Origin: Bacteroidia bacterium
GTDB taxonomy: Bacteria; Bacteroidota; Bacteroidia; B-17B0; Aurantibacillaceae
Direction: 5' to 3'
Assembly: GCA_025362575.1 (NCBI GenBank)
Contig: JANYIQ010000278.1
Location: 1 to 42,097 of the forward strand
DNA length: 42,097 nucleotides
Part shown: one piece after another, positions 38,621-41,006 of the stretch
Layout: each line of letters begins with the position of its first letter
Numbering within the stretch: the first letter of the stretch is position 1
The notes under the pieces: generated by a model
The model's input: only the letters and a program-made list of their open reading frames with translations
What the model was told of the DNA's origin: nothing
Databases searched by the model: none
Position numbers and translations under genes: made by a program

Positions 38621-39004
38621 CTATTTGCTTTTAAAACTCAATAACCAGGCATAAGCCTCGTCATAATCGGTGAACACCTGAGAGGGTGCGTTGGGTGCAT
38701 TTAAGGTATAATAAAAATTCAATAATAGTTTTTTGGTTTGCGACCGCACAACAAATGCTCTTGCTTTAGTTGTATTTCGCATGCTCTTTCCTTCCATATA
38801 ACGTTTCGCTTTATCGTCAATGGTCCAATCGGCCCTGCTGTCAATTAATTTTAAAAGTTGTTTGCTTTTGCTGAACTGCCTAACCACTAAAAAATTGTCC
38901 AACGCATCTTCATAATCCAAATGAATTCCTTCTGTCATTCTTACCAGAACGATCTCGTTTGCATCGATGGAAATTGCGGCCGTGCGGGTGGTGATCTCTT
39001 TCAC
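38621..39004 (-). CDS. Small STAS/SpoIIAA-like protein (DUF7793-like)
   Basis: 127 residues when started at the GTG at 39004 (MKEITTRTAAIS); a TTG at 39028 would add eight hydrophobic residues, and no ATG is available near the N terminus. The sequence alternates strands and helices: EIVLVRMTEG, DYEDALDNFLVVRQ, KQLLKLIDSRADWTI, ARAFVVRSQTKKLLLNFYYTL, then FTDYDEAYAWLLSF. This matches the small STAS-fold family I know from Bacteroidota (DUF7793-like), with the LIDSRAD strand-turn in the place of the SpoIIAA phosphoacceptor loop. The likely role is protein-protein regulation in the cytoplasm. The gene stands alone, with a triple direct repeat 44-94 bases upstream of its start. Start choice is uncertain. 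Confidence 0.6.
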   Translation of the reverse strand: MKEITTRTAAISIDANEIVLVRMTEGIHLDYEDALDNFLVVRQFSKSKQLLKLIDSRADWTIDDKAKRYMEGKSMRNTTKARAFVVRSQTKKLLLNFYYTLNAPNAPSQVFTDYDEAYAWLLSFKSK

Positions 39005-39047
39005 ACCTGATATTACCAATAAAAACAACTCATTTAAAGAAAATGCA

Positions 39048-39098
39048 TTAAGTGGTCGGTTTTGGCTTTTAAGTGGTGCGAATTTGGAAATAAGTGGT
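39048..39098 (-). promoter_or_regulatory. Three 9-base direct repeats at exact 21-base spacing, candidate LytTR-type binding array
   Basis: On the minus strand, ACCACTTAA (39048-39056), ACCACTTAA (39069-39077) and ACCACTTAT (39090-39098) recur every 21 bases, two helical turns. Nine-base direct repeats with 12-base spacers are the known site layout of LytTR-domain regulators. They sit upstream of the STAS-like gene and point the same way. Confidence 0.6.
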
Positions 39099-39140
39099 TA
39101 TCTGCCTTGTAACTAAGGCTTTCATTTAAGAGTTCAGGGC

Positions 39141-39167
39141 AAAAAAAGGCCGGAAAGATCCGGCCTT
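39141..39167 (-). terminator. Intrinsic terminator of the NHL-repeat T9SS gene
   Basis: Perfect 8-bp stem AAGGCCGG / CCGGCCTT (39146-39153 / 39160-39167) with a 6-base loop. On the minus strand it is followed by a run of seven Ts and lies 21 bases after the stop at 39189. Confidence 0.9.
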
Positions 39168-39188: not shown

Positions 39189-41006
39189 TTATTCTTTCAC
39201 TATTTTCTGAACTCTCATTACTTGAGTTCCATCTAAAATTTTCACCAAATAAATTCCGGGTTTTTCGTTCAAAATAACTTTGGTCTCAACCGGATTCATT
39301 TCATCTTTCGTAACCAATTGTCCTAAACCATTATAAATTTCGTAATGCATGTTAGCGCCTAAGCTGCCATTTATGATCACAAATTCTCCTTTGTTTGGAT
39401 TTGGATAAATAGTTGATTCTGTATTTAAACTAAGGTTAGGAACTCCAACGCAAGTTGAAACTGTAACAGCAATGGTACTTGTTTTAGTACAAGAGTTAGC
39501 ATCTATAGCAGTAGCAGTATAAATTGTAGTTGCAGTTGTTGTAACCACAGCTGTATTTGTAGCTCCACCGCTAGGGCTCCAGCTATAAGTATAACTTGGA
39601 GTTCCGCCTGAGGCAATTGTTGTTAAAGTTGAAGTTCCGCCTGCACAAACAGTAAGCGGATTACCAAAAATTGTTGTGATCATTGGAGACGGCTGTGTAA
39701 TGTTTACCGTATTTACTGCCGTGTTACCACAAGAATTTTTTGTAATCACAGTGTAGCTTCCTGCTGCTAAACCAGTCACAACCGAAGTTGTTTGTGCTCC
39801 CGGAATCCATGTATAAGTAAATGGTCCGCCACCAACAGCATTAACAGTTGCGCTTCCGTTAGCCGAACCATTACAGGTTACGCTGCTTGATGCAACAGTT
39901 GCTGTTACAGCTGTGGTACAAGATGAAGAAGTTAATAGACGGATACGGTTATTCAAATATTCTGCTACATAAATTTGATTCGGTGCAATTGCCTGAGCTA
40001 GTTGAAACGGACCATTGATCTGTGCTGCAGTAGCTAAACCGCCATCGCCGCTAAAACCACCAACACCGGTACCAACAGCAGTGCTTATGATGCCGGCCGC
40101 GTTAACGCTTCTTATTCTTGCCCCTGTGTACTCGCTAACCAAAATATTTCCACCTGCATCAATTAACATACAACCTGCCTGGTTAAGCGTAGCAGCTGTT
40201 GCCAAACCGCCATCGCCTGTTGAACTTGCAACACCGGTTCCAATTATAGTACTAATAATACCGCTTGTATTTACCTTACGAACTTTGTTACCAATTAATT
40301 CGCAGATGTACATATTACCTGCAGCATCAAAATAAAGACTCACCGGAAAATTTGTAGTTGCAGCACTTGCCAAACCACCATCGCCGGTTGAAGTAGCTGT
40401 ACCATTTCCAACAATTGTACTGATGATACCGCTTGTGTTTATTTTACGAACACGGTTTCCTGAACCTTCAACAATATAAACATTACCAGCCGGATCGATC
40501 TTTACATCGGTAGGTGCATTTAATTGCGCTGCAGTACATAAACCACCATCACCTGCAGATCCCGGAACACCTGTACCTGCAATTGTTGTAATAGTTCCTG
40601 TTGGAGTAATTACCCGAACACGGTTACCAAGATATTCGGCAATATATAAATTACCTGAAGCATCTAATGCAATACCTGTAGGTGCATTGAACTGAGCAGC
40701 AGTAGCAGGACCGCCATCACCACCAAATCCGGCAACACCGGTTCCGGCGTATAAGCTAACAATACCGGATGAATTTACTTTACGGATCTTGTTTCCACCG
40801 AATTCAGAAATGAAAACATTACCTGCAGCGTCAGTAGTTACACCATGCGGCGCGTTAAAAGTAGCAAGCGATACGTTACCGCCATCTCCTGTGGAAGAAG
40901 CAACGCCTGTCCCTCCAAATGTGCTGATCGTAAAAGTTGTTTGCGCATCAAGACTTCCGATCAGCGTAGCAACAATAAGTAAAGAAGAGTAAAATTGTTT
41001 TTTCAT
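39189..41006 (-). CDS. NHL-propeller and SprB-repeat secreted protein with T9SS sorting domain
   Basis: 605 residues with a signal peptide (1-21). Residues of about 25-365 are six NHL repeats of about 55 residues, each with GDGGxATAAQLNAPxxxxxDAxGNxYIxExxGNRIRxV and an intervening GIISTIVGTG turn, forming one six-bladed propeller. The next 80 residues match a SprB repeat (SSVTCNGSANGSATVNAVGG and TYTWIPGAQTTSVVTGLAAG), followed by a PKD-like domain (about 440-520). The C terminus is a T9SS type A sorting domain (TIYPNPNKGEFVI, then PGIYLVKI). It should reach the surface or medium. NHL/SprB combinations suggest binding or adhesion rather than catalysis. A strong terminator ends the gene, and it appears monocistronic. 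Confidence 0.88.
   Translation of the reverse strand: MKKQFYSSLLIVATLIGSLDAQTTFTISTFGGTGVASSTGDGGNVSLATFNAPHGVTTDAAGNVFISEFGGNKIRKVNSSGIVSLYAGTGVAGFGGDGGPATAAQFNAPTGIALDASGNLYIAEYLGNRVRVITPTGTITTIAGTGVPGSAGDGGLCTAAQLNAPTDVKIDPAGNVYIVEGSGNRVRKINTSGIISTIVGNGTATSTGDGGLASAATTNFPVSLYFDAAGNMYICELIGNKVRKVNTSGIISTIIGTGVASSTGDGGLATAATLNQAGCMLIDAGGNILVSEYTGARIRSVNAAGIISTAVGTGVGGFSGDGGLATAAQINGPFQLAQAIAPNQIYVAEYLNNRIRLLTSSSCTTAVTATVASSSVTCNGSANGSATVNAVGGGPFTYTWIPGAQTTSVVTGLAAGSYTVITKNSCGNTAVNTVNITQPSPMITTIFGNPLTVCAGGTSTLTTIASGGTPSYTYSWSPSGGATNTAVVTTTATTIYTATAIDANSCTKTSTIAVTVSTCVGVPNLSLNTESTIYPNPNKGEFVIINGSLGANMHYEIYNGLGQLVTKDEMNPVETKVILNEKPGIYLVKILDGTQVMRVQKIVKE

Follow-up and report, generated by a model that had tools for sequence, protein, structure and literature searches.

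A 42,097-nucleotide contig of a Bacteroidia bacterium from a little-studied group of Bacteroidota, referred to here as the window, carries a 9-base sequence repeated three times in one orientation upstream of a small gene. Is this array an operator, which regulator would bind it, and which other genes would come under the same control? An earlier reading of the letters alone (the sequence-only reading) proposed a LytTR-type operator array controlling a lone STAS-like gene, which it placed in a regulon with other such sites. We examined this proposal by comparing the source genome (G000) with its relatives and with public genomes.

Three direct repeats upstream of a DUF7793 gene

The array lies on the minus strand and reads ACCACTTAT (copy 1, the distal half-site, 39098–39090), N12, ACCACTTAA (copy 2, common to both overlapping pairs, 39077–39069), N12 and again ACCACTTAA (copy 3, the promoter-proximal copy, 39056–39048). 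The sequence, coordinates (39090, 39069 and 39048) and 21-base phase given by the sequence-only reading are exact. LytTR operators consist of direct repeats of about 9 bp with 12–13 bp between them, and the array has this geometry (9 + 12 = 21-bp period). The LytTR half-site consensus is [TA][AC][CA]GTTN[AG][TG], with which ACCACTTAT agrees at seven of nine positions in register; in a shifted register, the G of the consensus is mostly C here, with G in 12 of 142 first copies. This departure of the half-site from the consensus at one or two positions counts against the explanation that we favour below.

The word ACCACTTAW occurs five times in the window compared with 0.75 expected, a count reached in 0 of 100 shuffles, and the array accounts for three of the five. 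A 29-position matrix built from paired sites was run over both strands of the window (84 kb); the array pairs scored 33.9 (copies 1 and 2) and 35.3 (copies 2 and 3) and the runner-up 9.9, both array pairs being among the matrix's own 142 training sites. The spacers, described earlier as unrelated, do differ within the window and do not repeat, but across the family the description fails: the spacer centre is A-rich (A in 70–78% of the 142 sites at positions 15–17) and position 20 is mostly C (63%). Conservation in columns not fixed by the search extends to a T after copy 1, found in 82% of the sites in the matrix.

The gene downstream (38621–39004, minus strand) encodes a DUF7793 protein (PF25056, profile match 73 bits) of 127–135 amino acids, depending on the start codon. 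The mechanical start is a TTG at 39028; a GTG at 39004 is favoured because of the N-termini of homologues and the promoter geometry described below. The predicted model of the protein (pLDDT 92) matches the SpoIIAA-like/STAS structures 2q3l, 1tid and 4xs5, so that the label “STAS-like” is correct. Among DUF7793, DUF3478 and SpoIIAA-like (STAS) proteins, the window gene is thus a DUF7793 member with a predicted SpoIIAA-like fold, but it differs in having no partner kinase or phosphatase gene adjoining. The gene is also alone, as had been claimed. The upstream neighbour on the same strand (39189–41006) encodes a secreted NHL-repeat protein with a type IX sorting tail. Beyond its end at 39189, a terminator-like stem and T-run (39139–39167, minus strand) separate this gene from the array; the gene on the other side converges. 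The palindromic stem itself spans 39146–39167 and was listed by the program on the plus strand only, while the T-run is on the minus strand.

The paired motif recurs in front of genes across the family

In the source genome, 11 ACCACTTA-N13-ACCACTTA pairs were found at one mismatch or fewer, against none for the reversed pattern, and the 37 genomes of the family hold 155 pairs against 18 for the reversed-pattern control (summed by hand). The repeat is thus not confined to the window. Nor does it fall at random inside genes: 147 of 154 sites lie outside open reading frames of at least 120 amino acids, and in 123 of these 147 the next gene has the same orientation as the site. The sequence-only reading had named two outcomes as refuting it, a repeat present only here or one scattered at random inside genes. 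Neither was observed, LytTR regulators are encoded (see below), and the LytTR reading is supported. A full-text literature search for the word ACCACTTA returned only unrelated papers among the matches listed.

The exact triple pattern is found in public genomes mostly as 7-bp or 21-bp satellites. Such ACCACTTA-containing satellites mimic the triple pattern in unrelated bacteria (L133, L161, L164, L197, L127, L152, L158 and others). Other operator-type triple arrays number four (L121, L123, L174 and L175), two of which are possibly identical to contigs of G008 and G023 already found. The source genome has an ATCACTT 7-bp satellite at a contig end (G000:C77:1-114), with similar runs on contigs C85 and C203.

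One LytTR regulator follows the motif

Eight LytTR genes are encoded in the source genome, in keeping with the earlier reading, and one orthologous group tracks the motif. The candidate regulator, L009 (G000:C217:5643-6392), combines a receiver domain (Response_reg, 75 bits) with a LytTR domain (66 bits), and directly upstream lies a histidine kinase gene with Reg_prop, Y_Y_Y and His_kinase domains, the arrangement of a LytTR two-component system. When the LytTR proteins of 12 genomes were all placed in one tree, the L009 group was present in each of the eight motif-bearing genomes sampled and missing from the motif-less genomes G009 and G036. In 60 relatives, scores against a profile of the group separate orthologues, at 360 bits or more, from paralogues, at 309 bits or less; 30 of the relatives have an orthologue. 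Of these 30, 25 carry at least two motif pairs, compared with 2 of the 30 without an orthologue (Fisher p = 1e-9, phylogeny ignored). Class-wide, the corresponding figures are 15 of 23 genomes with the orthologue versus 11 of 224 without it, and 8 of 15 versus 11 of 224 when the source organism's own family is left out (both tallied by hand, phylogeny ignored). These associations are confounded by shared ancestry. Five genomes have an orthologue yet no more than one motif pair (G015, G022, G027, G028 and G031), and family f38 has few pairs; the orthologues in G028 and G015, which lack the motif, depart from LytTR-domain residues that are conserved elsewhere, a feature that fits but was noticed post hoc.

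The motif also stands in front of the regulator's own operon. In 13 genomes a same-strand site ends 50–55 bp before the kinase start codon (about 51 bp at the candidate regulator's own operon), and several of these sites fall outside the training set of the matrix. In families f16 and f44, a same-strand site lies about 10–250 bp 3′ of the regulator in nine genomes. The core claim of the sequence-only reading, a LytTR-type operator array within a regulon and a LytTR regulator encoded in the genome, is well supported as a prediction by comparative evidence.

Sites stand at a fixed distance from putative -7 boxes

Promoters of Bacteroidota carry the -7 element TAnnTTTG (PMC7366714). Counted from the end of the site, the commonest offsets of boxes resembling it (at most one mismatch) are 33, with 26 of 117 oriented sites, and 34, with 27, against a background of 1.7 per offset. 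The box starts 32–35 nt after the site in 65 of the 117, whereas other 4-nt windows have a mean of 7 and a maximum of 22. At the kinase promoters inspected, including that of the source genome, a -7 box with one mismatch was present at offset 33–35 in 10 of 10. With a box that begins near -11, sites would have their centre near -60, which would be the known geometry of LytTR activators: the AgrA repeats are centred near -60 (PMC4227749), and the RgaR repeats at the spoZ small RNA promoter have a critical G at -51 and at -72, 21 bp apart (PMC10602386).

In the window, the putative -7 box is TAAATGAG (39029–39036, minus strand), a poor match with two mismatches to TAnnTTTG, which lies at offset 33 from the pair formed by copies 1 and 2, the family-wide distance. 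The second DUF7793 promoter of the source genome, on contig C15, has the box TAATATTG with one mismatch, also at offset 33. Most three-copy arrays have their promoter-proximal pair (copies 2 and 3) at the right distance from the -7 box, with copy 1 as an addition farther upstream. The two DUF7793 promoters differ: there the distal pair (copies 1 and 2) is in register, and copy 3 occupies the -33 region on the way from this canonical pair to the box. Cooperative binding, which the earlier reading said three copies would allow, is therefore not the sole reading; copy 3 could provide an extra activating contact, or could act as a brake at high regulator levels.

Protein-coding targets of the predicted regulon

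Clustering of the genes next to the sites revealed several recurrent types. They include secreted or repeat proteins, of which several carry type IX sorting tails (the source genome holds at least 150 genes with such tails); operons of kinases and further Reg_prop-like proteins; ExbB-like proton channels, followed in the source genome by two ExbD-like genes and a TonB-like gene; a TonB-receptor-like protein that has a carboxypeptidase-regulatory and a plug domain; TonB proteins; a small protein of 81–111 amino acids; and, in the source genome only, two DUF7793 genes. The ExbB-ExbD-ExbD-TonB-like operon of the source genome (L471, G000:C317) has its site in front of ExbB, and a site with ExbB is likewise found in about 15 genomes. 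The 81–111 amino acid protein (MKTLIQI..MFGIEICSPFF..) is conserved, belongs to an unassigned family and is encoded behind a site at L406, L410, L413, L418, L430, L016 and L415; in the source genome it lies between phosphoserine aminotransferase-like and phosphoglycerate dehydrogenase-like genes.

For the STAS-like protein itself, regulon membership needs to be stated more narrowly than it had been. Two DUF7793 genes of the source genome have their own upstream site, out of 18 paralogues, and a third is divergent from a site; among the homologues scanned in relatives, none had an upstream site of its own. The STAS-like gene is thus predicted to be a lineage-specific accessory (peripheral) target and not part of the core. 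The source genome shows a large expansion of this family (18 members by profile, L071–L088), and other genomes of the bacterial family have between 0 and 17 DUF7793 relatives in a single-sequence search.

A conserved structured RNA behind the probable operator

Some sites have no near downstream gene. At these, the -7 box is followed immediately by a conserved 5′ ACGUUCUUU and next by GGUUUUGUUUAGUU; a terminator hairpin whose loop is rich in G completes the element, suggestive of a small RNA of about 80–100 nt. The candidate in the source genome (L316:542-635, on G000:C217, minus strand) lies between the regulator gene and a convergent FKBP-type isomerase gene. Further copies were found at L314, L317, L319, L320, L047, L051, L053, L058, L064, L068, L276 and L339, as well as L353 (two), L362, L365, L385, L396 (two), L402, L423 and L427. 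The terminator stem changes completely between copies while the GGGGAU/GGGGAG loop is kept.

Twenty-one copies were aligned, and single copies fold with z-scores of -2.4 to -6.5. Because direct MAFFT alignment of all 21 misaligns the hairpin arms, covariation was counted on the seven copies that align unforced. In these, 98.8% of stem cells pair, compared with 33–52% when the arms are slid, and in 9 of the 12 pairs both partners have changed. A model built from the seven copies recovers most of the others, all in the expected place, with the weakest E-values near 0.05, and adds new copies, for example 3′ of the regulator in G034 (L339:5417-5499). No Rfam family matched over the RNA in seven of the eight source loci scanned, and none scored above threshold; the window gave no Rfam match. 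A sub-threshold match to AaHKsRNA82 (36 of 51 bits) partly overlaps the copy at L402 and was taken as chance. A Flavo-1 RNA (RF01705, 47.6 bits) is present close to a small RNA copy, at L064:1210-1294 (plus strand). Predicted regulator sites thus stand directly upstream of a conserved structured RNA, which would presumably be transcribed, the arrangement of LytTR–small RNA circuits of the AgrA-RNAIII and VirR-VR-RNA type.

Proposed mechanism and alternative explanations

Computation yields the motif and its distribution, the fixed -7 distance, the co-occurrence with the regulator, the own-promoter sites and the covarying RNA; binding by the L009 regulator, activation as its effect and the role of copy 3 we infer. 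We propose that a dimer of the L009 regulator would bind a pair of adjacent copies, which share one face of the DNA at a distance of 21 bp and have their centre near -60, and that it would recruit RNA polymerase to a -7-type promoter. The regulator would activate its own kinase-regulator operon along with type IX-secreted surface proteins, the ExbB-ExbD-ExbD-TonB operon, the TonB-receptor-like protein and the small structured RNA, and in the source species the two STAS-like DUF7793 genes would have been additionally recruited. In the window, the two distal copies would form the activating pair, and copy 3, over the -33 region, may supply a further contact or, at high levels of the regulator, hold expression down. 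On the comparative evidence taken as a whole, the array is very probably a binding-site array for the L009 response regulator, activating through a -7 promoter. Besides the half-site, the poor -7 box of the window, the lack of a site at DUF7793 genes of relatives, the genomes that have an orthologue but hardly any motif pairs and the confounding by ancestry count against this explanation. We hold it to be fairly likely that the conserved output of the system is a new small RNA family, and that this is a Bacteroidota LytTR system with the protein-to-RNA logic of AgrA-RNAIII and VirR-VR-RNA, in which a Reg_prop kinase is the sensor, TonB and type IX surface proteins are controlled alongside the RNA, and copy 3 makes the STAS-like response self-limiting.

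Several other explanations deserve weighing. In both DUF7793 arrays, unlike most three-copy arrays, copy 3 overlies the -33 region, inside the stretch that leads from the canonical pair to the -7 box. Such a position would suit a regulator that represses the DUF7793 gene at the window promoter; both arrays nevertheless keep the canonical activating pair at exactly the family-wide distance, and we regard repression as unlikely. The sites could be LytTR sites that serve a different paralogue, or several paralogues jointly, given that a genome may contain up to 46 LytTR genes and that the close paralogues of L009 have much of the recognition region in common. Against this, the L009 group alone follows the motif, the other near-universal group (L007) being present also in the motif-less G009 and G036; a site stands before the L009 operon itself; and in G051, a genome of another family, L009 is one of just three LytTR genes, a second of which is partial. 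Involvement of another paralogue consequently seems quite improbable.

Regulators other than LytTR proteins also use direct repeats in activator position, and an OmpR-type or AraC-type activator, for example, co-resident in these genomes might be imagined to bind here. We give this very little credence, as a 21-bp period with half-sites of about 9 bp near -60 is the geometry of AgrA and RgaR, and the co-distribution and operon sites indicate a LytTR gene. The prevalence of satellites among exact triple matches in public genomes could suggest that the array is a functionless tandem-repeat remnant or a chance occurrence, but the differing, non-repeating spacers in the window, the excess over the reversed pattern, the orientation and the intergenic placement speak against this, and the -7 phasing contradicts it, making it extremely improbable.

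Relation to known LytTR systems

LytTR regulators abound in Bacteroidota, with up to 46 per genome in this set, and our literature searches found no described binding site or regulon for one of them. The analysis links one operator word to one regulator and its sensor, adds the promoter geometry and the targets that go with them, and brings to light a small RNA absent from Rfam; because of this link, the signal, the targets and the function of the RNA become directly testable. It also suggests a wider occurrence of LytTR-to-RNA circuits, which are described from Gram-positive bacteria.

The sites share with the sigma-ABfr promoters of Bacteroidota the TAnnTTTG -7 box downstream (PMC7366714), and differ in having a predicted activator site upstream, with its end about 33 nt from that box. 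The agr P2/P3 promoters of Staphylococcus aureus resemble the system predicted here in having a LytTR response regulator, AgrA, direct-repeat pairs near -60 and an autoregulated operon (PMC4227749). A regulatory RNA is among the AgrA outputs (RNAIII, as cited in PMC10602386); here the RNA is predicted from sequence and is unrelated to RNAIII. The half-site is different, a Reg_prop/Y_Y_Y kinase replaces AgrC with no peptide system seen adjoining, and the targets are TonB and type IX-secreted proteins. Compared with VirR-VR-RNA of Clostridium perfringens and RgaR-SpoZ of Clostridioides difficile, the system described here belongs to another phylum, with another promoter type (the -7 box TAnnTTTG), another half-site and a small RNA without recognised sequence relation. 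It nonetheless resembles them in its LytTR-type regulator and its two repeats, with a 21-bp period at spoZ, in having a small RNA as well as protein genes as direct targets (here predicted ones), and in a variable regulon with few core members (PMC2838878, PMC10602386).
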